From Thiomonas sp. FB-Cd (GTDB lineage: Bacteria > Pseudomonadota > Gammaproteobacteria > Burkholderiales > Burkholderiaceae_C), in the NCBI RefSeq assembly GCF_000733775.1, contig NZ_JPOE01000005.1, positions 744,001 through 808,000 of the forward strand: DNA of 64,000 nt, read 5' to 3'. The notes beneath the pieces are model-generated. The model searched no databases and was not told the origin of the DNA. It saw only the letters and a list, made by a program, of their open reading frames with translations. The position numbers were made by a program, and so were the translations under genes. Positions 35,283 through 51,967 of this stretch are shown one piece after another (the stretch's first letter is position 1; the number at the start of each line of letters is the position of its first letter).

Positions 35283-36203
35283 ATGGCCATGAACCCGAGC
35301 CGTTTCGATCTGGCGTCCTTGCGCCTGTTCGTGTTCGCGGCCGATGCGGGAAGCCTGACAGCAGGCGCCGAGCGCTATGGGATCTCGCTGGCCGCAGCCA
35401 GCAAGCGCATTGCAGAGCTCGAAGCACGCGTTGGCAGTGCGCTCCTGCTGCGAAGCAAGCAAGGCGTGACACCCACCCCTGCGGGGCATACGCTAAAAAG
35501 GCACGCGATTGAACTCGTGGCCCGGCTCGAGCAAATGGCCGTGGCGATGGCCGATTTCCAGCGTGGAGCCCATGGACACCTGCGTCTGTGGGCCAACACC
35601 TCGGCATTTGCGGGATTCCTTCCGGAGGTGCTTGCGGCCTACTCAACCGCTTATCCCCACATCAAACTCGACCTGGAAGACATGTTGAGCGACGTCACGG
35701 CGCGAGCCGTCGCAACCGGAGTCGTTGAGCTTGGAATCATGGGGGAAAACACGCCTGCCGAAGATTTGGAAACGCTGGTGTGCGACGTTGATGATCTCGT
35801 GCTGTTGATCCATCCCGGCCATACGCTGGCGGGCAAAGGAACAGTGTCGTTTGCGCATGCAATCGAGTATGACTTTGTGGCGCTCGGCAGAACGACGTCC
35901 CTGACACGACAGATCCATGCCGCCGCAGAGGCCGCCGGCCGTAGCCTGAAGGTGCGCGTGCAGGTGCGCAGCTTCGATGCCATGTCGCGCATGGTGGCCA
36001 CGGGACTTGGGATTGCCATTCTTCCAAGCGCAGGTGCGCTACCGCATGCCTCAGCACTTGGCCTCGAGATCCTTCATCTGGAAGGTCCATGGACCAAGCG
36101 TCGCCTCCTGCTTGCCATGCGCGACCGCCAGTCGCTTTCCGGGCCGGCCAGAGCGTTCGTCACTCTTGTTGAGAATCGCATGGCGGCGCATGCCGCAAAC
36201 TGA
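35283..36203 (+). CDS. LysR-family transcriptional regulator
   Basis: 306 residues from ATG 35,283, chosen because GGAAAGGG lies just upstream; an in-frame ATG at 35,262 falls in the palindrome. The N-terminal wHTH (DLASLRLFVFAADAGSLTAGAERYGISLAAASKRIAELE) is standard, and the effector domain includes RLWANTSAFAGFLPEVLAAY. Divergent from the MFS gene; the effector is probably that transporter's substrate. Confidence 0.92.
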   Translation: MAMNPSRFDLASLRLFVFAADAGSLTAGAERYGISLAAASKRIAELEARVGSALLLRSKQGVTPTPAGHTLKRHAIELVARLEQMAVAMADFQRGAHGHLRLWANTSAFAGFLPEVLAAYSTAYPHIKLDLEDMLSDVTARAVATGVVELGIMGENTPAEDLETLVCDVDDLVLLIHPGHTLAGKGTVSFAHAIEYDFVALGRTTSLTRQIHAAAEAAGRSLKVRVQVRSFDAMSRMVATGLGIAILPSAGALPHASALGLEILHLEGPWTKRRLLLAMRDRQSLSGPARAFVTLVENRMAAHAAN

Positions 36204-36591
36204 GCAGCCCCACGACGGGGTTCGACGCAGACGCGGTTGTTCGCGCTTTGCTTTGTCATCGCCCAAACCCACCTCCCGAGCCAGAGGATGACCCGCGTTT
36301 GCCGCAGATCAAGGAAACGTCGTCCCTGGGTTGCAAAGGGATACAGTCGGTCATAGATTGGAAATGTGCGGCAGACCGATTCGATTGCCTGGCGTTCCCA
36401 GTTTGGTCGGGGATGGAGTGCAGCAAAGCGCACATGGGCTTGCCCGTGAGTGTCATCGGCTCTGCCGCACCTCGTTATTCAGATCCGATCGGCAAGGCTT
36501 GCGAAGGCGTAAGCTCATACGCGACAGTCATGCTGCGATGCAGCGTTTGGTTGCATTGAGCCCTGCGGAGGGCTTTCAAGGAACATCTGTG
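36204..36591. other. Gene-free spacer before the YXWGQ lipoprotein
   Basis: A 388-bp stretch between the LysR gene and the small lipoprotein. Short overlapping frames occur but none has a good ribosome site or family resemblance. The lipoprotein's ribosome site (AAGGA, 36,578-36,582) is at its end. Confidence 0.4.
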
Positions 36592-36942
36592 ATGAACAAA
36601 ACGCGCATCAGCTCGCTGATTGCCACTGCTGCGTTGGCAATCAACCTGACCGGCTGTGTCGTTGCCCCGGGGCCACCGTACGTGGCAGCTCCGGCCCCCT
36701 ACCCCTACTACGCGGAAAGCACCTTGCCGCCTCCGGCACCACGGGCAGAAATCGTGGGTGTGGCACCTTATCCCGGCTATTTTTGGATTGCCGGCTATTG
36801 GGGCTGGGCCAGCGGTCGATACCTCTGGCATCCCGGCTATTGGGAAGCGCCACGTCAAGGGTACCGTTGGGTGCCGCATCAATGGGCGCAGCACGGCGGA
36901 GCCTGGCGGGCCCAACCGGGTCACTGGGAACGCCGCCATTAG
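36592..36942 (+). CDS. YXWGQ-repeat lipoprotein
   Basis: 116 residues. The signal ends in the lipobox LTGC (Cys at about residue 20), so it is a predicted lipoprotein. The body is rich in Y/W/P/G with spaced units such as GYFWIAGYWGWASGRYLWHPGYWE and YRWVPHQW, matching the short YXWGQ-type repeat proteins; the units resemble the Trp-rich repeats in the DUF6600 protein at 2,937. Probably on the outer membrane; function unknown. Confidence 0.75.
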   Translation: MNKTRISSLIATAALAINLTGCVVAPGPPYVAAPAPYPYYAESTLPPPAPRAEIVGVAPYPGYFWIAGYWGWASGRYLWHPGYWEAPRQGYRWVPHQWAQHGGAWRAQPGHWERRH

Positions 36943-37740
36943 CAGCCAAGTGTGGCTCTCGGAATTCTGGGCCCAGCATTTTTCCAGGTGCGCAATGGCG
37001 GGCTGGCGCGTGATGCGGCCGCCATGCGTTAGCGCCTGAGCGATGCCACCAGGTGTGATGGCTAGCGGCGCGTAGGTGCATGTTTGATGCGAGTCGCCTC
37101 CTCGGGGGCGCCGTAGAGCCTCAAAAGTGTGCTCGGTGCCTCGTCCGAGATCGCTTGTGTGAAGTCTGATTGCGGCTGAGGTCGCAGGCATGGGCTTTGT
37201 CCTGCACAGGGCCGCGCTGGCGACCCACGGCGTCAGCTGCTGCTTGCTCACTGTCGACGCGAGACCAATTCTGGCGTCCGCCGTCGGCGCCCAAGCGCGC
37301 GGACGATCCCTTGTTTTCATGAAGCGAACGGGCCGTCGGCTTCTTCGGGCCTTGTACGAAGCCGCGCGGTGGTCGTTGCCGTCGCTCAGGTGCGGGATGC
37401 TGTTGCTTTCACGATAACTCCGGAATCCAAGAAGTTGCGTGGAACCAGCGCGTTTGGTCAATGGGGCTGGGCGTTTGGTACGGCTTTAGCCCATTTAATG
37501 TAAGGACACAGCCGCTGCCGCGCACACGTTGCAGTCGCCTGGCGCCGTGCACGTGCTCATCCTTCTTCACCGCGTTGCCAGAGGGCATTGGAGACATTGG
37601 CCTGGATCTGACGAAGCAGGGGGCTGGGTTTTTTAGCATGAACTGCCCCTTCATTCGGGGATTGATACAGGGGCTCGCTCCTGTCTATCTTTCTACGCAC
37701 ATTCGTCAAGTGTTGATGATGCCAGCTTTGGGGACGCACA
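36943..37740. other. 798-bp region without a recognisable gene
   Basis: Base use differs from the core genes: fewer long frames and more stops. Candidate short frames (for example 37,190-37,417 plus) show no motif, ribosome site or conserved start. It may be degraded DNA at the border of the accessory region that follows. Confidence 0.4.
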
Positions 37741-38718
37741 ATGGCCGTGGTAAACGAGATTGCGATCGACGGAGCGTCGACATGTGCCCCACCAAAGGGC
37801 CACGAAGAAGCGGCAACTTTCCCATTTGGCATTACCTCATGCGAAAGCAGCCGCTTCTCGACCCATAACGTCAGCCCGATTCGTCACAATTTTGACCAAC
37901 ATCCGCTGATGCAACTGCCACGACTGGCGCAGCTCGCACATGACTTGATGCCGAGCCGACAGTGCCGATTTATTCGCCCGGGTACTACGCAGGCGTCCGA
38001 GTTTTTTCATACGCCGAAAACGCCTGATGGCGCAGCCATCGATGAGGTGTTTGCCCGGATCGAGGAGCCAGGGTCGTGGATCGCGCTTTACAACGTACAA
38101 ACAGATCCAGCCTATGCCGGCTTTCTTGACGAAGTCATGGCCAGCGCGAAGTCACTGCTTCAGGCCGAGCAACCTGGAGTGTTTCGCGTCGCAGGATTTA
38201 TCTTCATCTCTGCGCCGCCATCAGTCACGCCGTTCCATATCGACCGCGAGAACAATTTCTGGCTGCAGATTCGAGGCCGCAAGATCATGACCGTTTTTGA
38301 TCATCGCGATCGCGCGGTCGTGAAGGCGAAAGACGTGGAAGATTTCATCGTAAGCGGGTCGCTCAAAAACGTCCGCCTGGATCCGACGCATCGCGCGCTC
38401 GGGCACGACTTTGATGTAGGCCCTGGTGACGGCGTGTACTTTCCTGCCACCTCACCGCACATGACGCGCACCCCGACAGGCTGGGTCCAGCCTGGGAACG
38501 GCGTTTCCATATCGATAGGCGTGGTCTTCTATACGGACGTCACCCGCCATCATGCAAGAGTCCACCAGTGCAATCGAGTTTTGCGTAAGTTTGGCCTCAC
38601 CCCGACCTTCCCTGGTGAAAGCGCTTGGCGCGATGCGATCAAAGCTCCACTTGGAAGGGCCATTGCCGCATCAAGGACACGGTGGCGTAATTATGTCGCA
38701 CCTCCAGGAGCCTATTGA
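37741..38718 (+). CDS. Cupin/JmjC-like Fe(II)/2-oxoglutarate dioxygenase
   Basis: 325 residues. The facial triad is suggested by H-x-D in TPFHIDRENNFWLQIRGRK and a later histidine in GDGVYFPATSPHMTRTP, as in the transcription-factor-jumonji/cupin_8-like group. The N-terminal region (NFDQHPLMQLPRLAQLAHDL) fits this group too. Probably hydroxylates a peptide or small molecule. Near a TIGR04325-type methyltransferase, so the two may be remains of a modification cluster. Ribosome site weak (GGGG 9 nt upstream). Confidence 0.6.
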   Translation: MAVVNEIAIDGASTCAPPKGHEEAATFPFGITSCESSRFSTHNVSPIRHNFDQHPLMQLPRLAQLAHDLMPSRQCRFIRPGTTQASEFFHTPKTPDGAAIDEVFARIEEPGSWIALYNVQTDPAYAGFLDEVMASAKSLLQAEQPGVFRVAGFIFISAPPSVTPFHIDRENNFWLQIRGRKIMTVFDHRDRAVVKAKDVEDFIVSGSLKNVRLDPTHRALGHDFDVGPGDGVYFPATSPHMTRTPTGWVQPGNGVSISIGVVFYTDVTRHHARVHQCNRVLRKFGLTPTFPGESAWRDAIKAPLGRAIAASRTRWRNYVAPPGAY

Positions 38719-38804
38719 GTCAGCGTGCGCGAAGCAGAGGCGCATTGACAGTTCAGTTGTCAGTTCACACCTTGGTTGACGCCGCGGCCAGGTAGTTCAT
38801 GGTC

Positions 38805-39479
38805 TCACCCTCGTGCCACGTGCCCGCAACGATCTGCTCTGTCGCTTTGCAGTCGACCACAACAGCTGTCGCGGTGGCGTGGACGGAGATGGTGCCCAAG
38901 CGCATGGCAGGAAGCGCCGCATGCGTCGACCGGTTTCGCAGCCGCTTCTGGGTAGAGGTTTGGGAAGAGCAGGTGCAACTGGTCGAGCGGAAAACCCAGG
39001 CTCACGGCCCCCTTGGGTGAGTCCGACCGCAGAAGGCCGTCAGCCACCGGTCGCGACAGCGAGTGACGTGCCGCGCGCTCGCCCAAGCCGGTCATCTGCA
39101 CGAATTCACCACGGCTGAGCGGCCCCGCGGCCAGCACGTAATGGAGCGGAACGACGAGTTCACTGCGGTACGCCGAAGTGTCCTCGGTTTGACTCTTCCC
39201 CAGCACGAGGACATGCAAGCGTTTCTTTAGAGCTCCGAGGTCCAGCATCTCGGTCATGAACGGGACCTGGTCCTCGCACACGCCGATAAAAAAGCGGCAC
39301 CGCTCGAGCAGCATGCGCTCACTCAGGTTGCCGCGCCCGTCGAGGTCCCCTTGGCGCACCATGTCTGCGTTGGACAGATGTGAGTAGCATGCGTCGCGCT
39401 GGCGTGCCAAGCCTCGATTCATCGACCAAAGACCTGCGGATAGCGGCTGCACCGCAACGTGGGTCTGAAGGCGTGCGGC
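38805..39479 (-). pseudogene. Truncated fic duplicate (3' half only)
   Basis: 38,837-39,479 aligns without gaps to 44,068-44,710, which holds the last ~180 codons of the intact fic gene. The copy begins immediately after the codons for the Fic motif (HAFRDGNGR), so the catalytic core is missing. It keeps an open frame, but the normal stop TGA has become TGC (protein continues ...KPVDACGAS), extending it to 38,805. No start codon with a ribosome site is present. A relic of segmental duplication. Confidence 0.85.
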
Positions 39480-39867
39480 AAGGAGGCGGATACGCTCGCT
39501 TCTCCCTTGGGGTCGATGAATCGGCCTCTTGCGCAGATCACAAAGGGCTAGGGTGCACGACTAACGTGCCGTTGAATGCTGGTGCGCCGCCGGGATCAGC
39601 GACGAAGTAAGGCAGCGACCAGCAGCAGTGAACAAGGAAAGATGCGAGGAGCCTATCGCTACAACAGAGCGCTGTCGATGACGGACGCGAAGTTCTCGGC
39701 GATGTCCAGAAACCGGATGTGTAGAGCGCACTCTATGTCATGGCAATCATTGAAATCCATCGCCGCCCAGGACGTTCATGAACGTCTGCATGATGCTTGT
39801 ACGGACGGAATTGTTCAGCCGTGGGAGGGATCCCCCTACCGCCACATCTCTCCGAGGGTGCACGGTT
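39480..39867. other. 388-bp spacer without a recognisable gene
   Basis: Between the truncated fic copy and the methyltransferase end. The short plus-strand frames have no motif. It includes the right-hand boundary of the fic duplication and no insertion-sequence end that I can see. Confidence 0.35.
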
Positions 39868-40689
39868 TTAATGCTGGGTCAAGGCGAAGTGGTAGCCATG
39901 ATATTCACTCAGGCTGCGATCGCGACTGAAAGGGATCAGGCACGACTTGTCGGGGTTGATCCAGGCGTCCCGCAGCGTATAGCCCAGTGCCTGCAGACTT
40001 TTAACAAACGCGTCTTCGCGATCGATGCGATAGGGACAAAACGCCGTGCCGATGCTCTGCAGTGTGAAATACGCCGCGTCCGGATGCAGCGGCGTAAGGT
40101 TGACGAGTACATTCGGGGGGAGGCGCTTCAGGTCCTGCAACCGTTCGGCCAGTGTCTGGGGCAGATACTGCAAAACGCCCATCGCCAGAAAGATGTCGGC
40201 CTGCGCTGCCTCGGAGAAATCGTCCGCGAATTGGAGCTTTCCCAGACTGTCCCTATTGCGCGCGAGAGCCGCGCCGCGCTCCATCACTGCCGGGACGTCA
40301 TGGATGACCCATTGCAAATTGGCGGGATAGGTCAGTACCGATTGGTACGCGTAGTAGCTCACGCCGATGTGGCCGCCCAATTCAAAGATCCGAACCCTCC
40401 CCTGCCCGAACAACTGCTGAAGCCAGAACAGCACTGGATAGTCCGTGGGAAAAAGGTGCTTCATCCGATCGCGGTACATCAGCGCGGAGTCCGGATTGTC
40501 GTAGCCCATCGGCCGGGTCCGTGGTGCCGAAGCCGCGGCTTCCTCGAACGTCTGGAATACGCCGCGAAACAGGTTTCCCGACGTATTGGCCGCGAAACGC
40601 CGATCGTAACGCGAAGATAGCCACTGATGTAGCCCAGGCATATCGCCAAGCTTGTCAAGTAACCCGTGCGCGCGGCGCATCAACAGCAT
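39868..40689 (-). CDS. Putative methyltransferase, TIGR04325-like
   Basis: 273 residues from ATG 40,689, with AGGGG upstream at good spacing. N-terminal GYDNPDSALMYRDRM, DYPVLFWLQQLF, then a Rossmann-like FELGGHIGVSYYAYQ loop where SAM would bind, and the ANLQWVIHDVPAVMERG segment are in the style of the TIGR04325 family, often found in surface polysaccharide clusters. No glycosyltransferases accompany it here. Confidence 0.65.
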   Translation of the reverse strand: MLLMRRAHGLLDKLGDMPGLHQWLSSRYDRRFAANTSGNLFRGVFQTFEEAAASAPRTRPMGYDNPDSALMYRDRMKHLFPTDYPVLFWLQQLFGQGRVRIFELGGHIGVSYYAYQSVLTYPANLQWVIHDVPAVMERGAALARNRDSLGKLQFADDFSEAAQADIFLAMGVLQYLPQTLAERLQDLKRLPPNVLVNLTPLHPDAAYFTLQSIGTAFCPYRIDREDAFVKSLQALGYTLRDAWINPDKSCLIPFSRDRSLSEYHGYHFALTQH

Positions 40690-41079
40690 GTTGATTTCCC
40701 CTTGATGCCGAGATAAGTGGCTGACGTAGCCCTTTGAACAGGCATCATATGAACTTTGAGTGCTAGCGAACACTGTACTCGATGCCCTGCGCGGCGGCGC
40801 CAAGCCGCGTGCCAGCCTGATGCCATGCTCATCCAAGTGCGATGGACAACCGATGGCGGTGACGCACGCACAAGTCGTGGCCACAAAAGGCCGCCTGCGT
40901 GTGCTCCGGCGAAGAAATTGGCGCCGGTTTTGAGAGAACAGAGAGCAGAAGCGAGTCGAACCGGGCGACTTCAGGACGCCGGGCCGCCACGGCGTGGCCC
41001 ATGCAGATCGGCGCCGAACCCCGCGTGGTGTCGCGGAACTCGGAAATGAAAACACCCAACTGAGAACAGTTGGGCGCTA
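40690..41079. other. Gene-free spacer left of the island boundary
   Basis: About 390 bp between the methyltransferase start and the attL-like repeat core. Contains the methyltransferase promoter region and, from 41,012, the imperfect part of the tRNA-Phe flanking repeat including the copied terminator hairpin. No gene visible. Confidence 0.45.
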
Positions 41080-41132
41080 AATTTTGGTGGCCAGGGACGG
41101 AATCGAACCGCCGACACGCGGATTTTCAATCC
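41012..41132 (-). repeat. attL-like copy of the tRNA-Phe 3' end
   Basis: 41,080-41,132 is identical over 53 bp to 51,887-51,939, the 3' end of tRNA-Phe plus its CCA and five downstream bases. Leftward the match continues less perfectly to about 41,012 and includes the hairpin CCCAACTG-AGAA-CAGTTGGG. At 41,133 the sequence leaves the tRNA gene in the anticodon arm, so this copy cannot make a tRNA. This is what is left when an element integrates at a tRNA 3' end. Confidence 0.9.
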
Positions 41133-41245
41133 AAATCAGGCATGTCCATGCGTGCGAAACATGACGCAACACATAACAAAATCAAGCGCTTGCAGCGCAT
41201 TCAACCGCACTGGTCGTAAAGATTCGGTGATGACGTCGGCAGCCG

Positions 41246-42112
41246 TTACCGACGCAGGATGGCTGCGTAGTCGGGACGCAGCGGGTACAGCCAGATGTCC
41301 TTGATGGGCAGCGCCTGTTGGTGCGAGAGGCTCTTCTTGCCGCGGCCGGTTGTTTTGCCCACGAGGACCCAGTTGGCGGCCTTGTAGCAGGTGCCTTTGT
41401 GCCTGGGGCTTTCGACGAAGGTCTCCAGCATCACGGGCGAGTAGCCGTAGCGCTGCTGCCAGTCTTTGGGCAGGCGACGCGCGGCGAGGGCCAGGATCTT
41501 CGAGGCAAGCCCTTTGGACTGCACCCACGGCAGGATCAGGAAACGCGTGTTGTTGACGACGCGCTGCAGGTTGTTCTGCCGCTGATCGTGATTCCAGCCG
41601 ATGAATCGTTCGCGATCGGCCAGCTTCCAGGCGCTGGCGCCGAAGCTCAGCAAGGCAACGAGCCGGTCGCCAGCGTAGACGTTGTAACGGATCTGGCTGC
41701 CCGACATGGGCGTGTAGCCCAGGTAGTGGTAACGCGCCACATATTCGTTCCACAGCCTGGAGGCCGCGCCGACACCGGCGACCACCTCCAGGCGCAAGGC
41801 ATCCAGAGCATGCACGGGCATGTCGATCGCACCTTGCGCATCGGTGGCCGGTGTGGGGTCGAACTGCGCCCGGCGCCGCGGGTGAGGCATCTGTGAGGGT
41901 GGCAGCGTGATCAAGCCGTCAGTCTGCATGCGCAGCATCGCCACGCGGCAACTCATGTCGCTGAGGCGTCCATCAGGGCGGCGCCAGTCGATCATCTCGC
42001 ACACCCTGCGCGACAGCGGCGCGCGCTTGAGCTGGGGGTTTTGCGCCATCAGCCAGGCGATGGCGTCAAGCTCCTCCTGCGTGAACACGCGCCCGCAGTA
42101 CCGTTTGTTCAT
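41246..42112 (-). CDS. DUF4338 (Druantia DruA-like) protein carried by the IS
   Basis: 288 residues. Diagnostic blocks are ARYHYLGYTPMSGSQIRYNVY, WKLADRERFIGWNHDQRQNNLQRVVNNTRFLILPWV, GLASKILALAARRLPKDW, and ETFVESPRHKGTCYKAANWVLVGKTTGRG. The central part has the feel of a GNAT-like fold (LPWVQSKGLASKIL), an inference only. DUF4338 includes DruA of the Druantia anti-phage system, but no druB-E or helicase is present. Its ATG overlaps the tnpC stop by 4 bp, and it ends 6 bp from the inverted repeat, so it is part of the transposon. Confidence 0.85.
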   Translation of the reverse strand: MNKRYCGRVFTQEELDAIAWLMAQNPQLKRAPLSRRVCEMIDWRRPDGRLSDMSCRVAMLRMQTDGLITLPPSQMPHPRRRAQFDPTPATDAQGAIDMPVHALDALRLEVVAGVGAASRLWNEYVARYHYLGYTPMSGSQIRYNVYAGDRLVALLSFGASAWKLADRERFIGWNHDQRQNNLQRVVNNTRFLILPWVQSKGLASKILALAARRLPKDWQQRYGYSPVMLETFVESPRHKGTCYKAANWVLVGKTTGRGKKSLSHQQALPIKDIWLYPLRPDYAAILRR

Positions 42113-43803
42113 GAGCTGTCGATTGTTGCGCAGGCCACGCCGCGCATCGCGCTCAGCCGGGCCTCATCCATCCGCCAGGGCAGGAAGCGGTCGAGGTCCG
42201 CCGGCATGCAGCCGCCCGCGTGTGCGCAGGCATGCAGATACGCGCTCAGCCAGGTGCGCGGATTGATCCCCCAGCACTTGAGCGTACCCAACACGCTCAT
42301 CATCGTGGCGGCCAGCTGCCCCGACCACTGGCTGCCCGAACCATAGAAGTTCTTGCGCCCGACCACCGCGGGCCGCAGCGCGCGTTCGGCGGCGTTATTG
42401 TCCAGGTCGATGGCGGGATGATCCAGGAACAGGATCAGTCCCGCCCAGTACGTGCGCAGGGTACGCAGCACCTTGTGCGCCGCGCCTGCCAGTGCCGTGT
42501 CGGCCAACTCATCCAGGCAGCGCTGCTCCATCGAGGCCACCAGCGCGCGCGTCTCGGCATCGCTGTCCTTGAAGGCAGCGTCGCCATCCGCCCATTGTTG
42601 CCGCCGCCGGGCGTGCAAGGCGTACAGCTCGCCGATGAGCCCGACCCATCCCATGGCCCAGTCCCACAGCGCCGGATAATCATTGGCCGCGCGCAGGAAG
42701 TCGCGCCGCTGGTGCGCCCAGCAGATCGACAGCTTCACCCCCGGGTTCAACCGGGCGAACTTGCGGTACGAGGCGTAGCGGTCGACACTGAGAATCCCCT
42801 CGTCCACATGGTTGAGTGCGGCCGCCGGCACCGAGGCCGAGCGTGAAGGATCGAGCACAAAGCACACCGCAGTGGCCGACTGAAACACCCACAGGTACCA
42901 GCGATGCCCGACCTTGCCGGGCTCCTCCTCGAACACCTCCCAGCGTGTCTCGTCGGCATGCCAGTGCGAGCCACGTCGCAGCTCATCCAGGCCAGCCTCG
43001 GCCACCGGCCCCAGCAACGGCCACAGCATGCGCAGGCCCTCGGTGAGCGTGCCCTGCGCGATGTGCAGCCCATGATCGTCCCAGTCCTGCAGCAGCCTGT
43101 GGCTGGGCTGCCCATAGAGAAACTTCGACAGCAGTGCCTCCACCCAGACCGACACGCCCAGCTTGCCCCGTGGGATGAGTTGCGCCGGCGGCGGCGCCGT
43201 CACGATGCCGGGAAGTGCGCCGCAGCAGCACAGCGGCCGGTAGCGGTGTCGGCGGACGATGCGGCGGTACGCCTTGACCTCGATCTCCAGAATCTCGGCA
43301 TCCTGCGTGCCGGGAAACGCGCTCAGCCCCAGGCCGCAGCGTGGGCACGTCGTCTGCAGCGTCACCTCCTCAACCCTGGCCGGCAATCCGCCCAGGCGCG
43401 TGCGGCCGTGACCACGCCGCCCACGTTGCTGGCCCCGCGGCCGTGGAGGGCCAGCGCTGACCTGGCACACCGCATTGATCCGGCGCGACTGTTCCGTCTT
43501 GGCGCCAAACACGCGCAGGCGAAGATCGCGGATCTGCGCCTGCGCGGCCTCCAGCGCCGCCTTCAACTCGGCTTCACGCTGCGCAAATCGCGCCTTCTCG
43601 GCCTGATGCCGACGTTCCACGAATTCGATGCGCGCCACGGCTCGCGCATGCAGGGATCGGTATGAACTTGCCCGCTGCACCAACTCGATGTGCTCGCGCC
43701 TGGTCAGCGTGACCAACTCCTGGTCATAGGGTTTCGGCGTCGGCCGTCTTGCGTCGGGCACCGTCCCGATCGCCGAGTCCAGGTCTGCGGCTGTGTCGTT
43801 CAC
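42109..43803 (-). CDS. tnpC: IS66-family transposase TnpC
   Basis: 564 residues. N-terminal coiled coil (HQAEKARFAQREAELKAALEAAQAQIRDLRLRVFG), zinc-ribbon-like CPRCGLGL...LCCCG, then the DDE core: D284 (HADETRW), D341 (SVDRYASY) and E473 (NNAAERALRP), followed by GRKNFYGSG and a C-terminal GINPRTWLSAYLHAC tail. All catalytic residues are present and the frame is intact. Of IS66 subgroups, those with tnpC alone (ISBst12-like) are the best match. Confidence 0.95.
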   Translation of the reverse strand: MNDTAADLDSAIGTVPDARRPTPKPYDQELVTLTRREHIELVQRASSYRSLHARAVARIEFVERRHQAEKARFAQREAELKAALEAAQAQIRDLRLRVFGAKTEQSRRINAVCQVSAGPPRPRGQQRGRRGHGRTRLGGLPARVEEVTLQTTCPRCGLGLSAFPGTQDAEILEIEVKAYRRIVRRHRYRPLCCCGALPGIVTAPPPAQLIPRGKLGVSVWVEALLSKFLYGQPSHRLLQDWDDHGLHIAQGTLTEGLRMLWPLLGPVAEAGLDELRRGSHWHADETRWEVFEEEPGKVGHRWYLWVFQSATAVCFVLDPSRSASVPAAALNHVDEGILSVDRYASYRKFARLNPGVKLSICWAHQRRDFLRAANDYPALWDWAMGWVGLIGELYALHARRRQQWADGDAAFKDSDAETRALVASMEQRCLDELADTALAGAAHKVLRTLRTYWAGLILFLDHPAIDLDNNAAERALRPAVVGRKNFYGSGSQWSGQLAATMMSVLGTLKCWGINPRTWLSAYLHACAHAGGCMPADLDRFLPWRMDEARLSAMRGVACATIDSS

Positions 43804-44067
43804 AGCAAACAGGGTACGGCGAAAAAACTTCTGTGTCCAGCACGTTCTGCTCGCGACTCGGTCAGCCTACGTCATCACCGAATCTTTACCACTGGTCTGT
43901 ACCTGCCATTGCGACCCATTGCCAGAAAACATGCCAGATTGGGGCCGCTGGCAGTAGTGTAGAACACCGCGCTCGAACAGTGCTCCCCGCCTGCCCGCCG
44001 AGGCGACGACAGCTCGGTGTGAACACGCCGCGTGAGACCAAACCGTCTTGTGCACGCCGATGTGGGG

Positions 44068-44710
44068 CTCGGTCGCTTGGCAATCGACGACAACAGCTAT
44101 CGCGGTGGCTCAGACGGAGAAGGCGCCCAAGCGCATGGCAGGCAGCGCGTCATGCGTCGACCGGTTTCGCAGCCGCTTCTGGGTAGAGGTTTGGGAAGAG
44201 CAGGTGCAACTGGTCGAGCGGAAAGCCCAGGCTCACGTCCCCCTTGGGTGAGTCCGACCGCAAAAGTCCGTCAGCCAACAGTCGCGACAGGGAGTGACGC
44301 GCCGTGCGCTCGCCCAAGCCGGTCATCTGCACGAATTCACGTCGGCTGAGCGGCCCCGCGGCCAGCACGTAATGGAGCGGCACGACGAGTTCACTGCGGT
44401 ACGCCGAAGTGTCCTCGGTTTGGCTCTTCACCAGCACGAGGGCATGCAAGCGTTTCTTTAGAGCGCCGAGGTCCAGCATCTCGGTCATGAACTGCACCTG
44501 GTCCTCGCACACACCGATAAAAAAGCGGCACCACTCGAGCAGCATGCGCTCACTCAGGTTGCCACGCCCGTCGAGGTCCCCTTGGCGCGCCATGTCTGCA
44601 TTGGACAGGTGTGTGTAGTACGCATCGCGCTGGCGTGCCAAGCCTCGATTCACCGACCACAGACCTGCGGATAGCGGCTGCAGCGCAACGTGGGTCTGAA
44701 GGCGTGCGGC
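44068..44710. repeat. 643-bp direct repeat (second copy at 38,837-39,479)
   Basis: Gap-free alignment with 38,837-39,479 and clearly above 90 percent identity by eye. It covers the last part of fic and about 80 bp beyond its stop. One copy lies inside the island, the other 1.6 kb outside attL, in the same orientation. The intervening 4.6 kb contains the methyltransferase, attL and the IS66 element. Confidence 0.88.
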
Positions 44711-45370
44711 GCGGCCGTTGCCGTCGCGGAAGGCGTGAACCCAGGCCACACGGTGGTGCAAGCAAGCTACCGCCACCAAGCCCATATCCAGGCTCCAGCG
44801 ACGACCGTAGAACCCGTCCATGCGCGACAAGAAGCCTGGCAGCGAAGTCCAGGTCGGCGGGTGGTGGCGGTGCACAATCACGTCTTCCTGCCGCAACTGA
44901 CCAGGCTGCACCACATGGCCATCTTCGGTCGTGCGGTCTTGCGGCGTCAGACGACCGTAGAGCGCAGCATGCGCGCGCAACAACATCGGGCTTTGCAGCA
45001 CCGCCTCCTCTGGAGCCCCCAGGCCTTCGAGTTCGCGTTCGGCTTCGATGTGTGCAAGTGCGATGCGCTGGCGCTGGGCCACGTCGGGCTTGTCAGAGAA
45101 ATCCTTCCTGAGGGCGCTTTCGATGTAGCGCGGATGCGTGCTCTGGCCCTCGATGCAATTCGAATAGTACGAGTTCATTGCTCGCACCAACTCGCGCAGG
45201 CGTTGGCGCGTGACCGGATGTGCCGAACCCTGCAGTCGCAGAGATGCCTCGACCACGCCGCGAATGCGAAGCGCGAGCTCCTGCATCGCGGCGGCATTGC
45301 CGGGCATCAGGGGCTCGAACTGCGCGGGGTGGTCGTACACCACGACTTGGGTTGGGGTGGAATGCATCAC
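44150..45370 (-). CDS. fic: Fic-domain protein (AMPylator type) with C-terminal winged helix
   Basis: 406 residues. The Fic motif HAFRDGNGR is at residues 212-220 with the catalytic H212. An N-terminal inhibitory motif of the S-x-x-x-E-G form is present as S70-N-C-I-E74-G75, so this is a self-inhibited class II Fic. Residues ~330-400 form a winged-helix-like domain (LSRREFVQMTGLGERTARHSLSRLLADGLL). Such stand-alone Fic proteins modify host or own proteins with AMP; the target is unknown. No separate antitoxin is adjacent. Upstream is 251 bp of AT-richer DNA to the next gene. Confidence 0.9.
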   Translation of the reverse strand: MMHSTPTQVVVYDHPAQFEPLMPGNAAAMQELALRIRGVVEASLRLQGSAHPVTRQRLRELVRAMNSYYSNCIEGQSTHPRYIESALRKDFSDKPDVAQRQRIALAHIEAERELEGLGAPEEAVLQSPMLLRAHAALYGRLTPQDRTTEDGHVVQPGQLRQEDVIVHRHHPPTWTSLPGFLSRMDGFYGRRWSLDMGLVAVACLHHRVAWVHAFRDGNGRAARLQTHVALQPLSAGLWSVNRGLARQRDAYYTHLSNADMARQGDLDGRGNLSERMLLEWCRFFIGVCEDQVQFMTEMLDLGALKKRLHALVLVKSQTEDTSAYRSELVVPLHYVLAAGPLSRREFVQMTGLGERTARHSLSRLLADGLLRSDSPKGDVSLGFPLDQLHLLFPNLYPEAAAKPVDA

Positions 45371-45636
45371 AGCGAGATTTGGGGCTTCAGACGGGAGACA
45401 AATTGCCGATCATTTTGCCGTTCATGTTAAGCCGCAAACCATTGTCATGCATGTCATTTATGAATGAAACAACCAACCATTCGAAGATTTTTTGCCGATG
45501 TTCATGCCGATCGCTTGCCATGCTTGTCGCAGTCGCGCCCCGATGCGCCTCCTCTTTAAGGTCGCCAAGACTGAGGGAAGCGTGCTCATCAGCCGATGTC
45601 CACGAGTTCAGTCGGCCGACGATGCAAAGTCAATCC

Positions 45637-46020
45637 ATGGTCCGTCCAAAGGGTCGCGCCAAGAGCACGGACGCCGCCGAAGTCGGACCCCGGCCGATCG
45701 TTGTCGCAGTCCTCCCCGCAGGCCAGGGAGGACGCCACCAAGCAAACCGCCCGCCTGTGGCCGGCGCCACGCGATCTGTGCTGCTCAGTGGTGACATTGT
45801 CGCCGACGTTACCGGTTTGCCCCTCACCTGGTTCGCGCATCTGCGCGATCCCCAGAGGCTTAGCATTCCGTTCTACGCACTGGGCAATGCCGGCGTGATC
45901 AGGTTCAGCCTCGAGAAGGTGTTCCGCTGGGAAATGACCAGACTGGTGCCGCGAGCTCTGCCGTTGGTCAACGCCGGGTTGAGACACTCGAACGATAGTA
46001 ATGCATCTGCATTGACATAG
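45637..46020 (+). CDS. Hypothetical protein with excisionase-like C-terminal domain
   Basis: 127 residues from ATG 45,637, or 132 from 45,622. The last ~80 residues (VTGLPLTWFAHLRDPQRLSIPFYALGNAGVIRFSLEKVFRWEM) are clearly related to the end of the gene at 48,632 (ITGLPGYWIHQNQERLRLGIPFYRIANGDAIRFSIEELFLWEM), but the first helix-turn-helix domain of that gene is missing. Its 3' end lies inside the toxin-antitoxin operator. Probably a decayed or shortened paralogue. Confidence 0.5.
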   Translation: MVRPKGRAKSTDAAEVGPRPIVVAVLPAGQGGRHQANRPPVAGATRSVLLSGDIVADVTGLPLTWFAHLRDPQRLSIPFYALGNAGVIRFSLEKVFRWEMTRLVPRALPLVNAGLRHSNDSNASALT

Positions 46021-46040
46021 CAATGCAGATGCATTACTAT
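45995..46040 (+). promoter_or_regulatory. Promoter and palindromic operator of prlF-yhaV
   Basis: Two perfect 20-bp arms (45,995-46,014 and 46,021-46,040) flank a 6-bp centre. A textbook sigma-70 promoter lies in it: TTGACA at 46,012-46,017, 17 bp, TACTAT at 46,035-46,040. So -35 and -10 both fall in the palindrome. Binding by a dimeric AbrB-type antitoxin would block transcription; PrlF is known to repress its own operon. The start of transcription is near 46,047. Confidence 0.9.
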
Positions 46041-46069
46041 TGCGATCAGTTGCCTGACGAAGACGCGCC

Positions 46070-46399
46070 ATGCCCGCCACCCTGCAAGTTGAATCGACGC
46101 TGACCGACCGCTACCAGACCACCGTGCCCGAGACGGTGCGTCGAGCGTTGCGCCTGGGCAAGCGCGACAAGATCCACTACACAATCCGTCCCGGCGGCGA
46201 GGTCGTGCTCACGCGCGCGACCCCTGGCGACGGCGACGATCCGGCGTTGGCGCCGTTTTTGGACTTCCTTGCCCGCGACTTGGCCGAGCACCCTGAACGG
46301 CTCCAAGTCGTGGACGCTGGTCTCGCACAGCGCATCCAGGCACTGGTCGGCGGTGTTGAGGTTGATCTGGGCGCGCCGCTGTCGGCGGACGATGAATGA
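46070..46399 (+). CDS. prlF: Antitoxin PrlF (AbrB-like)
   Basis: 109 residues. N-terminal swapped-hairpin AbrB DNA-binding domain (STLTDRYQTTVPETVRRALRLGKRDKIHYTI) and a C-terminal toxin-binding tail (DPALAPFLDFLARDLAEHPERL). Its stop overlaps the yhaV start by 4 bp (ATGA). Neutralises the YhaV ribonuclease and, with it, represses the promoter just upstream. Confidence 0.93.
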   Translation: MPATLQVESTLTDRYQTTVPETVRRALRLGKRDKIHYTIRPGGEVVLTRATPGDGDDPALAPFLDFLARDLAEHPERLQVVDAGLAQRIQALVGGVEVDLGAPLSADDE

Positions 46400-46905
46400 G
46401 CGGCGGCACGCCGCTGGTCGTCAACGGGTGGACCCTCTTTGCCCACCCGATCTTCCTTGACCAACTTGACTCCCTGACCGCCCAGGTCGAAGCGCTCAAG
46501 CGCAAGGACTCGGTCGGCTACGTCAGGAAGAACGCCACCAAGCGCCTGGCGGCCATCGCCAAGTTGGCGTTCGAGGTGATTCCACAGGACCCCACCCGAC
46601 CGGAGTACCGCCAGGGCAACATGCTCGGCGACGAGCACAAGCATTGGTTCCGGGCCAAGTTCTTCCAGCAGTACCGGCTGTTCTTCCGCTTCCATGCGCA
46701 GGCCAAGGTGATCGTGTTCGCTTGGGTCAACGACGAGGACACGAAGCGGGCCTACGAGAGCTCTGACGACGCCTACCGGGTGTTCCGCCGGATGCTTGAC
46801 AGCGGCCACCCGCCGTCGGAGTGGGGCCAGTTGCTGGCCGAAGCACGCGCCGAATCGGAGCGCCTTGGCCGACTGGCGTCAGGCGGCGCACGCGCAAGTC
46901 CTTGA
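46396..46905 (+). CDS. yhaV: Toxin YhaV (RelE-superfamily ribonuclease)
   Basis: 169 residues. Family features: VNGWTLFAHPIFLDQLDSL at the start, KRLAAIAKLAFEVIPQDPTRPEYRQGNMLG, and the catalytic/structural RAKFFQQYRLFFRFHAQAKVIVFAWVNDEDTKRAY block. Full length, so probably an active mRNA-cleaving toxin. Translationally coupled to prlF. Confidence 0.93.
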   Translation: MSGGTPLVVNGWTLFAHPIFLDQLDSLTAQVEALKRKDSVGYVRKNATKRLAAIAKLAFEVIPQDPTRPEYRQGNMLGDEHKHWFRAKFFQQYRLFFRFHAQAKVIVFAWVNDEDTKRAYESSDDAYRVFRRMLDSGHPPSEWGQLLAEARAESERLGRLASGGARASP

Positions 46906-46996
46906 TTTTTCGACCTGCCGGGCCATGCGGTTCGCTGTATCGCACTGGGTAGGCAGGAGCAACGCTCGAACTGGCCTCCTAGCGAGTCGTTCGACC

Positions 46997-47779
46997 TCAC
47001 GCGTGTCGTGCCGCCGGAGGATGTGAACTTCCTGACCACGCACCTGCGCTTCCACTGGCTTGAGTACCCCGCAGGGCTTGAACGATAGCGTTCCACTCTG
47101 CTTGCGTGAGCACGCGGTCGCGCGCGTTGTTGATTTTCGGGATGTCCACCCCGGCCGCCGGGTTCACGCCCGGCTGGGTCCAGGACCATTTGGTTCGGGC
47201 GTAGTTGAACAGGCGGCTGAGCTGCGCCTGCTCGAGATTGACGCTCGCCGGCTCGTAGTGCTCGTCGCGCATCGCGTACATCAACTGCTGCACGGCGTAG
47301 GTGGTCACATCGGCGAACGCCATCCGTGCCAATTGCTGAAGTATTTTCGTCGACTTCTGGCCCCGCGCGTCCTGGCTGCAGCGGTGCGGCTGCAGGCTCT
47401 TGGGAATCGTGCGCGCCTCCTCGTCGACCAGCTCGACCTGCCAGTGGAGCGCTCCCGCCTGGGTGACCGGCTCGACCTTATGCAGGCGAATCACCGGCAG
47501 GCCACACGCGCGCAGATAGCAGTTGATACGACTGGCGTCCTGACACGCGCCCTTGAGCTCGGGCAGCTTCTCCAGCGCATAGTCCATGAACGCCACGCCA
47601 ACGCTCGTCTGGTGGGGACCGAGTTTGGCCGGCTTGCCGGTTTCGAGTATCGCCAGGCGCTGCTGTTCGGCCGCGTTTCGCGCGTCCGCTGCCGAGCTGT
47701 AGCCGCTGAGATAGATGTCCTGGCCGCGCACACGCACGCGCACCGCCCATCCCCTGCCCTCCGGATACGGCTTAGCCAT
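46997..47779 (-). pseudogene. Truncated tyrosine-recombinase integrase
   Basis: About 260 residues from ATG 47,779 (MAKPYPEGRGWAVRVRVRG). The arm-binding and core-binding regions are visible, including TTYAVQQLMYAMRDEHYEPASVNLEQAQLSRLFNYARTKW. The frame departs from family-like sequence after LTQAEWNAIVQALRG (near 47,070), before any of the R-H-R-Y catalytic residues. The catalytic domain is absent from the window, so the gene cannot be active. It probably once moved the island. Confidence 0.75.
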
Positions 47780-48285
47780 GACGCACCCCGCGGCGGACGG
47801 TGTGTCCTCGAACCTGGAACCTGGGGAACGCAAACCAATGTTGAATGATGACCTTCACGAAAACTCCTTGAGTGGAGTTGCGTGTAGGAACACCGGTCGG
47901 AGAGCGTCCTGGCCGGTGTATTTACGGCGCAGTGGCGCACATGCAGGCGCCGTCGATGCCGGATGCCTTGGCCAGACCGAGTGTCAGAAAAAACAAAGCC
48001 CCGTCACAGGGACAGGGCTAAGTTGTTGAGTCGGCTTGGTGGTGGAGTGTAACAGAAAACCAAACCCACATATCAGCAGTCTCTCAGCCCCGGTCGGAAG
48101 CCTTGAGACCCTCGCGCGATTCCGGGGAAGGATTTCGCGCAACCGCACATGTCCATGATGGTAAGTTCAGAGAGGCCGATTGGCACTCGCAGTTGCCGCA
48201 ACTGCCAGGGAATCTGGTGGATGCAACTTGGCTTTCCTCTCGTCTATCGCCGTAATGCCCGGCACGAACGACGAAAGGAAATGCC
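47780..48285. other. 506-bp spacer with minus-strand terminator
   Basis: Between the integrase fragment and the helix-turn-helix gene. Contains the terminator at 47,997-48,019 and, right before 48,286, a clear GAAAGGAAATGCC ribosome site. No protein gene is evident; a small RNA on the minus strand, ending at the terminator, is possible but unsupported by a promoter. Confidence 0.4.
47983..48019 (-). terminator. Intrinsic terminator reading leftward
   Basis: On the minus strand: AGCCCTGTC-loop-GACGGGGCT (48,019 to 47,997, one mismatch in a 9-bp stem) followed by TTGTTTTTTCTG. This is a good Rho-independent terminator. No leftward gene lies upstream of it for 2 kb, so it may shield the integrase from readthrough or end an unannotated RNA. 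Confidence 0.7.
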
Positions 48286-48648
48286 ATGCAAACCGAACCC
48301 GCCTTCACCGAAACGGGGCTCGCACGTCGGTGGAACGTCAGCATCAAGACCCTGCAACGCTGGCGCAGCGAAGAACGCGGCCAGCCGTACATCAAGCTCT
48401 CAAAGGCCATCCGCTATCCAGTCGATGAGATCGTCACCTATGAGCAGGCGATCCGCCAGGGCATGTCCCACGAAGTGCCGCTGCCATCCTTGAACGACGC
48501 GCAGCCCGTTGTCGAATCTCCCGCGCCCGCCGCCCCCGAACCGAAGCGGTATTACTTGAGCGAGGCCTTCGCACTCATCGCGCAGTACGGCAGTCTTGAA
48601 GCGGCCGAGGCCGCGCTGACGGAGGCGCGCGATGAAGCCCAAGGTTGA
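48286..48648 (+). CDS. Helix-turn-helix (excisionase/AlpA-like) protein
   Basis: 120 residues with a strong ribosome site. The N-terminal domain (FTETGLARRWNVSIKTLQRWRSEERGQPYIKLSKAIRYPVDEI) is a winged HTH of the MerR/excisionase type. The C-terminal half (RYYLSEAFALIAQYGSLEAAEAALTEARDEA) is acidic and helical. Its end overlaps the next gene by 17 bp, and the two share related DNA-binding domains, so they look like a regulatory pair of the island. Confidence 0.7.
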   Translation: MQTEPAFTETGLARRWNVSIKTLQRWRSEERGQPYIKLSKAIRYPVDEIVTYEQAIRQGMSHEVPLPSLNDAQPVVESPAPAAPEPKRYYLSEAFALIAQYGSLEAAEAALTEARDEAQG

Positions 48649-49180
48649 TGCCGATAGACAGAGTGTTGTGTCCAGCCCGGAAGAGCCAGTCATCACGTAT
48701 CCGGTCCTCGATGAAACCCAGTTGTCCTCGAGGTGGAATCTCTCACCCAAGACGCTGCAAAAGTGGCGCTCGGAAGGAATCGGCCCGCCCGCCTGGCACC
48801 TCAACAGATCTATCCGTTACCTTCTGATGGAGGTTGAGGCCTTCGAGCGCAAGGCTCGGGTCACTTGGAAATCCCCTGCCGGACGCCCTTTGTCCGAATC
48901 CTCGCCCACGGCACGTGAAGACGCCATCGAGCAGATGATGCAGAAGCGGCCTGAACGCCGTGATCGGGTTTTCTACTCAGCCAAAGAGGTGGTCGACATC
49001 ACTGGATTGCCCGGTTACTGGATTCACCAGAATCAGGAACGCCTGCGGCTCGGCATTCCGTTCTACCGGATCGCAAACGGTGACGCCATCCGCTTCAGCA
49101 TCGAGGAACTCTTCCTCTGGGAGATGCATCACCTGCGCCCATGCCGGTACCCAGCAAAAGGGAATGCTGATGCCCCGTAG
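48632..49180 (+). CDS. Double helix-turn-helix protein
   Basis: 182 residues. First domain (LDETQLSSRWNLSPKTLQKWRSEGIGPPAWHLNRSIRYLLMEVEAFE) closely resembles that of the preceding gene; second domain (VDITGLPGYWIHQNQERLRLGIPFYRIANGDAIRFSIEELFLWEM) resembles the product of 45,637. So each DNA-binding domain has a relative elsewhere in the island. Likely an excisionase or operon regulator; exact role unknown. Confidence 0.65.
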   Translation: MKPKVDADRQSVVSSPEEPVITYPVLDETQLSSRWNLSPKTLQKWRSEGIGPPAWHLNRSIRYLLMEVEAFERKARVTWKSPAGRPLSESSPTAREDAIEQMMQKRPERRDRVFYSAKEVVDITGLPGYWIHQNQERLRLGIPFYRIANGDAIRFSIEELFLWEMHHLRPCRYPAKGNADAP

Positions 49181-49253
49181 TTGGGACGGGGCGTGGCGAA
49201 GTGTGTTGCCCTACGTTCCTATATTTCGTTGATTAGTTGAAATTGGAGAACAA

Positions 49254-49883
49254 ATGGAACACACTCCATCAATGCTCTCCGAGACCCACACCCAGCGCAT
49301 CCTTGATCTGGCCAGCCAGAGAGTGCTGCTACGTGCCAGCGATCTGGACGCCATCAGCTCGCCCCGGGTCATCCTGACGCGCATGACTGCAGCAGGACTG
49401 CTGGAACGGGTCGGGCGTGGTCTTTACCGTCTGCCAGGCGCACAGGTGACGGAATTTGAGAGTCTTGCCCTTGTCGCCACCAGGGTGCCACAAGCCGTGT
49501 TCAGCCTACTCACAGCACTCCAGTTGCACGGGCTGACCACCCAACTGCCGCGTCAAATATGGATCGCCATGCCACGCGGCAGCCACTCACCCCGGATCGA
49601 CTTTCCGCCGATCCGGATGGTTCAGATGGCCGGTAGGGCTTATCTGGCAGGCGTCGAGGAGCACTTGTGCAACGGGGTGAAGGTGCGGATCTACAGCCCG
49701 GCCAAGACCGTGGTCGATTGCTTCAAACATCGCAACAAGATCGGTCTGGATGTGGCGCTGGAAGCCTTGAAAGACGCCTGGAGGACGCGCAAGGCCTCTG
49801 TGGACGATCTGTGGCGCTACGCCCAGGACTGCCGCGTCGCCACTGTGATGCGCCCCTACATGGAGGCAGTCGCCCACGAGTGA
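49254..49883 (+). CDS. AbiEi-like type IV antitoxin, orphan
   Basis: 209 residues. N-terminal winged helix (RVLLRASDLDAISSPRVILTRMTAAGLLERVGRGLYRLPG) and C-terminal AbiEi domain (SLLTALQLHGLTTQLPRQIWIAM, YSPAKTVVDCFKHRNKIGLDVALEAL). AbiEi is normally followed directly by the toxin AbiEii, a nucleotidyltransferase; here the next gene is an XRE-ImmA/IrrE protein instead. It may be a free-standing regulator. Confidence 0.8.
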   Translation: MEHTPSMLSETHTQRILDLASQRVLLRASDLDAISSPRVILTRMTAAGLLERVGRGLYRLPGAQVTEFESLALVATRVPQAVFSLLTALQLHGLTTQLPRQIWIAMPRGSHSPRIDFPPIRMVQMAGRAYLAGVEEHLCNGVKVRIYSPAKTVVDCFKHRNKIGLDVALEALKDAWRTRKASVDDLWRYAQDCRVATVMRPYMEAVAHE

Positions 49884-49917
49884 CGCCACGGCCTCCGAGA
49901 CGGGTAGGGTTCTCTTT

Positions 49918-49955
49918 GGTTTAAAAATTTGGTAGGATGACGGTTGTTTTAAACC
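49918..49955 (+). promoter_or_regulatory. Operator candidate before the XRE-ImmA gene
   Basis: GGTTTAAAA (49,918-49,926) and TTTTAAACC (49,947-49,955) form a perfect 9-bp inverted repeat with a 20-bp spacer, in AT-rich DNA 18 bp before ATG 49,973. AAAGGAGG lies between. XRE regulators usually bind such repeats in their own promoters. Confidence 0.6.
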
Positions 49956-49972
49956 CAACCAAAGGAGGCGTC

Positions 49973-51052
49973 ATGATTGCAGATCGCATTCGTCAAGCAC
50001 GATTGGCGGCAGGCCTGACCCTGGGTGCGTTGGGCGAACAGGTGGGTGTTTCTCACACCGCCATCCAGAAGTACGAGAAGGGCCTGCTGACGCCATCGTC
50101 GACTCAGCTACTCAAGCTGGCCCGCGCCTGCGGCATCCGGACCGAATACTTCTTTCGCACGCATACGGTTGAACTGCTGCAGCCCGAGTTCCGCAAGCTC
50201 TCGACCTTTGGCAAGACGGCGCAGGATGCGCTGAAGATCAAGGTCGTCGAGTTGGTGGAAAAGCGCGTGGAGTTGCTCGGCGCATTTCCCGAACTGCCGT
50301 TCCCGGCGTTTGCACCGCCCGCGAATCTGCCTGAGCACATCACCTCGCTGGATGAGATCGATGCGTTCTCGGATTCGGTCCGCAACGCTTGGCAGTTGGG
50401 GCTGAATCCGATTGCTGACCTCACCGACACCCTCGAAGGCCTTGGCTTGCTGGTCATCGTGGTAGATGAGGAGAACCCGGGCTTCTCTGGCTTGACGGCC
50501 AAGGCACGGACCGAAGATGGCCGGGAGTATCCGGTCGTGGCGGTTTCCAAGCGCTGGCCCGGTGATCGGCAGCGGTTCACGCTGGCGCATGAGTTGGGGC
50601 ACCTGCTGCTCGAAGGACGACTGGCTGACGGCATCAACGAAGAGAAAGCCTGCGACCGGTTCGCCGGTGCCTTCCTGGCTCCGGGTGTCGCGGTATTGCA
50701 GTTGCTTGGGGCACAACGCCATGCGCTGGAATGGCAAGAGCTGTATGTGCTCAAGCACGAGTTCGGTCTGTCGATGACCGGATGGCTGCAGCGCGCCAAA
50801 CAGTGTGGCGTGATCACCGAGGCCGCTCACCTCTCTATGTTCAAGCGGTTTTCGGCCAAGGGCTGGCGCAAGACCGAGCCTGGCCAGCCACTGCCGCAAG
50901 AGCATCCACGACTGTTTGATCAGTTGGTGTACCGCGCCTTGGCCGAGCAATACATTTCCGAAGGCAAGGCGGCGGAATTGCTGGGCATCCCGATGATGCG
51001 CTTCCACAAAGAACGCCAGCTGGAGTCATCGGATGCGGTTGCTCATCAGTGA
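49973..51052 (+). CDS. XRE regulator fused to ImmA/IrrE metallopeptidase
   Basis: 359 residues. HTH_3 at residues 5-60 (RIRQARLAAGLTLGALGEQVGVSHTAIQKYEKG), then a COG2856 peptidase domain with HELGH at 206-210 and E224 as likely third zinc ligand (EEKACDRFAGAFLAPG). The C-terminus is helical. Such fusions repress a promoter and may cleave a repressor or antitoxin under stress. It overlaps a PIN-domain gene by 20 bp, consistent with an antitoxin role. Confidence 0.88.
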   Translation: MIADRIRQARLAAGLTLGALGEQVGVSHTAIQKYEKGLLTPSSTQLLKLARACGIRTEYFFRTHTVELLQPEFRKLSTFGKTAQDALKIKVVELVEKRVELLGAFPELPFPAFAPPANLPEHITSLDEIDAFSDSVRNAWQLGLNPIADLTDTLEGLGLLVIVVDEENPGFSGLTAKARTEDGREYPVVAVSKRWPGDRQRFTLAHELGHLLLEGRLADGINEEKACDRFAGAFLAPGVAVLQLLGAQRHALEWQELYVLKHEFGLSMTGWLQRAKQCGVITEAAHLSMFKRFSAKGWRKTEPGQPLPQEHPRLFDQLVYRALAEQYISEGKAAELLGIPMMRFHKERQLESSDAVAHQ

Positions 51053-51816: not shown

Positions 51817-51939
51817 TGTGCGGGAACCCCGCGTGGCATGCGGGAAGCACAAATGAAAACGCCCAACTGAGAACAGTTGGGCGTTGAATTTTGGTGGCCA
51901 GGGACGGAATCGAACCGCCGACACGCGGATTTTCAATCC
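51817..51939 (-). repeat. attR-like repeat at tRNA-Phe
   Basis: Partner of 41,012-41,132. The exact 53-bp core is 51,887-51,939, covering the tRNA 3' end. The less exact part includes the terminator. The two copies are offset by 10,807 bp, which sets the island length. Confidence 0.9.
51859..51884 (-). terminator. tRNA-Phe terminator
   Basis: 11-bp perfect stem ACGCCCAACTG / CAGTTGGGCGT with a 4-nt loop, followed on the minus strand by GTTTTCATTT. It starts 7 nt past the tRNA CCA end. A diverged copy lies at attL. Confidence 0.85.
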
Positions 51940-51967
51940 GCTGCTCTACCGACTGAGCTACCTGGCC
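51892..51967 (-). tRNA. tRNA-Phe (GAA)
   Basis: 76 nt including the encoded CCA. Acceptor arms GGCCAGG and CCTGGCC pair fully, D-arm AGCTC...GAGC, anticodon loop TTGAAAA with anticodon GAA, T-arm with GGTTCGATTCC. The downstream 48 nt plus flanking bases are duplicated at 41,080-41,132, marking it as the island's integration site. The tRNA is intact. Confidence 0.97.

Follow-up and report, generated by a model that had tools for sequence, protein, structure and literature searches.

Architecture of the element and its copies in the Thiomonas genome

Analysis of a 64,000-nucleotide stretch of the Thiomonas sp. FB-Cd genome (contig NZ_JPOE01000005.1, positions 744,001 to 808,000; hereafter the window) identified a 2,674 bp element of the IS66 type at 41216-43889, which has two genes, both on the minus strand. 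The first, tnpC, encodes the transposase and the second encodes a protein of the DUF4338 (DruA) family. The element has 25-bp terminal inverted repeats that match at 24/25 positions (96%; 28 nt at 93% when extended) and is flanked by a perfect 8-bp target-site duplication, CACTGGTC, as had been reported in a first-pass annotation made from the sequence alone. Duplications of 8 bp are typical of IS66 elements. The features are as follows.

41216-43889, unstranded: whole IS66-type element, defined by its inverted repeats, 8-bp duplication and seven complete genomic copies
41208-41215, unstranded: target-site duplication CACTGGTC, left copy (exact 8-bp direct repeat)
43890-43897, unstranded: target-site duplication CACTGGTC, right copy (exact 8-bp direct repeat)
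41216-41240, plus strand: left terminal inverted repeat, starting GTAAAGATTCGGTGATGACGT, complementary to the right arm at 24/25
43865-43889, minus strand: right terminal inverted repeat, 24/25
42109-43803, minus strand: tnpC, IS66 transposase, 564 aa (PF03050, NF033517; D284, D341 and E473 aligned with canonical TnpC)
41246-42112, minus strand: Mom-like / DUF4338 gene, 288 aa, with ATGA overlap with tnpC and residues H129, R190, S204, Y243, N247 and W248 (PF14236; PF25680 below cut-off; PHROG; structural model)
41246-41809, minus strand: GNAT/Mom-like core of the DUF4338 gene, residues about 102-288

The tnpC protein matched DDE_Tnp_IS66 (PF03050) at 1.7e-56 and the NCBIfam model transpos_IS66 (NF033517) at 3.4e-91. 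Its residues D284, D341 and E473, which we take to be the catalytic DDE triad, aligned with the equivalent D, D and E in the canonical TnpC of L049, another IS66 locus of the same genome, in keeping with the annotation's description of the triad as intact. In L049 the TnpC gene is preceded by a 125-aa open reading frame (ORF) without a Pfam match and by a TnpB_IS66 gene (PF05717, 6.8e-30), whereas the window element has neither. The tnpC and DUF4338 genes overlap by 4 bp (ATGA), as had been claimed. Only 61 bp separate one repeat from the tnpC start, so there is no room for tnpA or tnpB in the window element, and the DUF4338 stop codon is 5 bp (not 6 bp, as first given) from the other repeat. 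The element has the TnpC, inverted repeats and 8-bp duplication of IS66 and lacks the classical tnpA and tnpB; IS66 subgroups with tnpC only exist.

The annotation had reasoned that a DUF4338 gene missing from the element's copies, or lying outside their repeats, would be a passenger. The genome contains seven complete copies (the window's and six others); in every one the repeats enclose both genes and are flanked by an 8-bp duplication, the opposite of what a passenger would show. The DUF4338 gene was stop-free in all seven, and one of the tnpC frames was shorter than the rest (539 vs 585 residues, stop to stop). Four copies were at least 99.9% alike and the other three were 98.4% alike to the window copy. 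Two further loci (L047 and L048) were fragments. The three 98.4% copies (L044, L045 and L046) also contain an insertion of ~1.64 kb next to one repeat, on its inner side. It holds a 507-residue open frame and has a 6-bp overlap, as expected of a nested insertion sequence. The 8-bp duplications of these copies were at three places, two with identical target sequence, which indicates that the enlarged element may still move.

The seven copies had five distinct target sequences, with CCGACTTC common to three of them. These three copies may stem from one insertion that was carried along by another repeated unit. Loci L041, L044 and L046 (continued in L217, L218 and L219) were at the same spot, at one end of a ~1.9 kb repeated unit that has a 587-residue open frame and forms their right flanks; their left flanks differ. 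The shared site was considered as a target motif and rejected, as the right flanks are one repeated unit; the pattern had three genomic matches, all of them these same sites. No clear consensus for target preference was found across 32 insertion sites.

The DUF4338 protein, phage Mom and Druantia DruA

Profile searches of the DUF4338 protein gave a strong match to Pfam DruA (PF14236; 1.6e-40, 139.6 bits vs a cut-off of 27) and a match to Pfam Mom (PF25680; 8.5e-5) whose 22.7 bits are below the curated cut-off of 27.1. The PHROG Mom-like profile was matched at 2e-6. The predicted structure (predicted local distance difference test score, pLDDT, of 92.3) had a GNAT fold, with about 100 mainly helical residues at the N-terminus, and its best VIA-align match was the Mom protein of phage Mu (PDB 8bv8). 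A structure search returned 71 PDB chains at E ≤0.001, and among the 50 listed the names of acetyl- or acyltransferases predominated. The best viral structural match by E-value, in BFVD, was a 469-aa protein labelled Faunusvirus (A0A3G4ZXG3), ahead of phage Mom. Sequence searches of the PDB with the protein or its profile returned nothing useful.

Phage Mu Mom modifies adenine in DNA. Six residues of the window protein, H129, R190, S204, Y243, N247 and W248, were found in 73-75 of the 75 DUF4338 family rows and in 13/13 Mom rows. The likeness to Mom comprises the fold and this residue set. The window protein differs from Mom in its additional N-terminal region, in its tie to a transposase gene, and in having R167 and W173, which have no counterpart in the Mom rows. 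Together, the model and the residue set suggest that the DUF4338 protein is a Mom-like enzyme with a GNAT fold, its activity being predicted. A GNAT enzyme could instead be a protein acetyltransferase that acetylates the transposase or a host factor and so sets the rate of transposition, leaving DNA untouched. We consider this unlikely, as Mom was the best match both by VIA-align and by profile and the conserved residues are those of Mom, and the unrelated transposases beside which the gene occurs (see below) would all have to be substrates.

The relationship to DruA of the Druantia defence system was more distant than the family name implies. Druantia DruA belongs to the same Pfam family (PF14236), with a profile match of E 3.8e-9 over the middle region, and shares G138, R167 and G256 with the window protein. 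A few other conserved residues are common to Druantia and not to Mom. In the aligned Druantia proteins, however, none of the six positions listed above was conserved (0/5), a count from five sequences whose alignment was difficult. An alignment-free motif count, which covered close relatives of one Druantia query, found A.NW in 120/120 transposon-type proteins vs 0/120 of the Druantia type, and SS.YNRL in 115/120 Druantia-type proteins; neither W.VP.S nor SS.YNRL, the motifs of Druantia-type DruA, was present in any of the 120 transposon-type proteins listed. The PADLOC DruA score of the window protein was 22.2 bits, vs 353 and 701 for two true DruA proteins. A DEAD/DEAH helicase was present in 4/6 fetched plasmid loci that carry the Druantia name; near the window element there was no candidate for a large helicase of the DruE type, as no ORF longer than 564 aa was among those listed for 36000-50000.

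The description of the gene as DruA-like was weakened by these comparisons, because its active-site-like residues are common to phage Mom and not to Druantia DruA. The name DruA is misleading. P0004, a transposon-type protein with 95% identity to that of the window, is named "Druantia anti-phage system protein DruA" in the database. Where Druantia systems are counted by such names, or by Pfam matches alone, the totals may be too high.

Association with transposases, selection and spread

A profile scan of genome contigs identified at least 575 DUF4338 relatives, from which 80 loci were kept. At 70/80 of these loci, a transposase gene either shared the reading frame of the DUF4338 gene or lay no more than 400 bp from it in the same orientation; among control windows, taken from the same loci at distances of 2.6 kb or more, the figure was 9/523. 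Six neighbours assigned to IS66, DDE_5 or DDE_Tnp_1 by Pfam were added by hand, in loci and control windows alike. Without the 17 loci of Candidatus Accumulibacter ACC003 the proportion was 53/63. Across the 80 loci and those from genome searches, the transposase contexts confirmed by Pfam were IS66, Tn5-like (Tnp_DNA_bind, Dimer_Tnp_Tn5), DDE_Tnp_1_assoc with DDE_Tnp_1 (annotated ISAs1 in L210), UPF0236 (L078), DDE_Tnp_1 (L084 and L154) and DDE_5 (L143). The gene order varied, with the transposase gene first, the DUF4338 gene first, or a single fused frame. Fused frames were of the IS66-DruA order in L176 (808 aa) and L185 (824 aa) and of the DruA-transposase order in L080, L097, L099, L101 and L210, while L082 joined DruA to DDE_Tnp_1_assoc. 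The ISAs1-type fusions retained only the GNAT part of the DUF4338 protein.

The arrangement in the window, a DUF4338 gene overlapping the end of an IS66 tnpC by 4 bp within shared repeats, had been put forward as something to be sought elsewhere, and the overlap was found in 28 loci, of which ACC003 accounts for 17. The gene pair was bracketed by inverted repeats matching at 15/18 or better in 48/86 related loci vs 7/172 shuffled-flank controls; when an exact duplication of 8 bp or more was also required, the counts were 28/86 and 0/172. Among these 28 bracketed loci are the window element and 16 ACC003 copies, so that the number of separate genomes or contigs is 13. Included are IS66 elements of both gene orders (8 bp), the Tn5-like L157 (9 bp) and L171 (10 bp, with an 18/18 repeat), and the DDE_Tnp_1 locus L154 (8 bp). 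A duplication was not found at the UPF0236 locus L078 (repeat 17/18) or the fused L185 (repeat 18/18), and neither repeat nor duplication was found at the DDE_5 locus L143. No repeat was seen in 38/86 loci, some of which were cut by contig ends.

In ACC003, with 40 of 183 candidates scored, 28 DNA matches covered a related element in full, including both genes, and 11 were partial. The repeats and 8-bp duplication were present in 16/17 of the fetched loci. Two ACC003 copies were 7 bp apart, which disfavors target immunity, weakly, as they are only ~93% alike. Of the annotation's two suggestions, an accessory to transposition or a target-immunity factor, the second thus lost ground on weak evidence. 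The view of the DUF4338 gene as a genuine transposon component was supported by the copies, the repeats, the linkage, the selection on it and the natural fusions to transposases. At three ACC003 loci (L118, L122 and L134) there was another, distant DUF4338 gene of 311 aa; the ORF that follows it (166 aa) had no Pfam match, and no transposase was recognised beside this gene.

These data also bear on the possibility that the protein is a non-enzymatic accessory that replaces TnpA and TnpB, for example in DNA binding or transpososome assembly, or acts in target immunity. The element has no tnpA or tnpB, and the helical N-terminal 100 residues, as modelled, could bind DNA. The near-invariant polar residues, however, are common to an enzyme family, the ISAs1-type fusions have kept the GNAT part alone, and the closely spaced Accumulibacter copies argue against immunity; we think this explanation very unlikely. 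Another proposal is that the gene benefits the host, as a defence or anti-restriction gene selected for protecting it. Database names such as that of P0004 favor this, and Mom-type modification is described, in passages of PMC7824862, as protecting phage DNA. Against it are the natural fusions to transposases, the ATGA overlap with tnpC, the absence of a partner nuclease or helicase from the two-gene element, a high copy number that fits selfish use, and the lack of the Druantia DruA residues. We judge a role in host protection to be distinctly unlikely.

The DUF4338 gene is under purifying selection and co-diverges with tnpC. In 13 pairs, its ratio of nonsynonymous to synonymous substitutions (dN/dS; simple NG86-type counts) was 0.09-0.30, and was below that of the partner transposase in 11/13 (10/11 IS66 and 1/2 Tn5-like pairs); some loci are shared between pairs, and several dS values exceed 1. 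The distances of DUF4338 and tnpC were correlated (r = 0.766; Mantel test, n=27), with 0/2,000 permutations as high; the elements compared were of the IS66 type, with tnpC first and a tnpC frame no shorter than 480 aa, after removal of near-copies. A quick tree of 75 DUF4338 rows, with Shimodaira-Hasegawa-like approximate likelihood ratio test (SH-aLRT) support only, retained one of the main Accumulibacter copies and one of the four Arenicellales copies, and omitted rows that were weak matches, were partial domains or had identical cores; 10/75 rows had no transposase label. On this tree, 16 labels (transposon contexts, Mom and Druantia) required 25 changes vs a shuffled mean of 55.1, which indicates that contexts switch rarely, yet several times. 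The five Druantia rows formed one starred group, but its branch has a length of 9 and drew long-branch warnings, so this placement carries little weight for or against a transposon origin of DruA. The structural model of a Druantia DruA had a mean pLDDT of 47.5.

A related protein 94% identical to that of the window (P0007) has the UniRef title "passenger gene of insertion sequence ISCARN22", and a related tnpC protein (P0121) was 91% identical to the window tnpC. The term "passenger gene" would suit a gene captured once by chance. This is contradicted by the linkage, the fusions, the selection, the occurrence with several transposase families and the genomic copies, and we give it almost no credence. 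The ISCARN22 title gives no function, no link to Mom and no spread across transposase families, and the name was not mentioned in the open-access literature searched.

Searches from the tnpC side, in 10 genomes preselected for such loci, gave 39 matches, 30 of them with loci, and the DUF4338 gene adjoined tnpC in 20/30. Of 22 matches at E ≤2e-43, 19 had loci; 18 of these have the DUF4338 gene, and in the remaining one, L232, a contig end truncates the locus. Further tnpC loci without the gene were weaker IS66 matches or fragments. The association with DUF4338 is therefore a mark of one tnpC clade and not of all IS66 elements. From the tnpC side the element was rare, being found in 2/399 genomes of the order and in no viral contigs, and the 15 plasmid matches listed were all below 33% identity. 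The DUF4338 protein was found in 3/150 genomes of the family, and the Pfam DruA/DUF4338 family in 17/398 of the phylum; each of these genome counts includes Thiomonas sp. FB-Cd itself.

A candidate role in transposition and the surroundings of the element

Based on these observations, we propose that the element is an autonomous IS66-type transposon with a Mom-like, DNA-modifying accessory that works with the transposase, a reading that we hold with slightly more confidence than doubt. Enzyme and transposase would be produced jointly, probably through translational coupling, and in some relatives form one polypeptide. The enzyme would attach a small group of the acyl type to bases in DNA, with adenine the likeliest target. 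It would act next to the transposase, where the fusions put it, and its substrate may be the transposon ends, an intermediate in excised or circular form, or DNA surrounding the transpososome. The gain might be that intermediates of transposition or newly made copies are shielded from host nucleases and restriction, or that marking distinguishes donor from target DNA. Phage Mu is a transposon that uses Mom for protection, and we favor protection of the element's own DNA by analogy, while regarding this as the least certain step.

More broadly, and with rather more doubt than confidence, we suggest that several bacterial families of DDE transposons use transposase-coupled hypermodification on their own DNA, that mom of Mu perhaps came from the same pool, and that such "anti-phage DruA" proteins are transposition enzymes. 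These transposons would be the bacterial counterpart of fungal DNA transposons, many lineages of which encode TET/JBP dioxygenases, according to Kojima 2025 (PMC12730594). In that account, heterogeneous lineages each have a DNA-modification enzyme, and the systems differ from ours in being eukaryotic, in oxidizing 5-methylcytosine and in using an unrelated enzyme. A single element type is already known from the ISCARN22 title; neither the link to Mom nor the spread across transposase families was found in the open-access literature searched, a search that did not extend to ISfinder or TnPedia. If the proposal is correct, base modification would be part of bacterial transposition, for which no description was found in that literature, DUF4338 proteins named Druantia DruA would be reassigned, and Mom, transposons and a defence system would be linked through one fold.

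Around the element, the end of a tRNA-Phe gene (51892-51967, minus strand) and its flank are repeated at 41016-41132 and 51824-51939 (119 columns, 91%). These repeats, ~10.8 kb apart, outline a genomic island, with the element ~75 bp in from one end. In addition, 38836-39135 and 44067-44366 form a direct repeat of 300 bp (92%), by which a portion of the terminal region of a Fic-family gene (44150-45370, PF02661, 2.2e-10) recurs on the far side of the element. A match to an AbiEi-type antitoxin/regulator was identified at 49254-49883.
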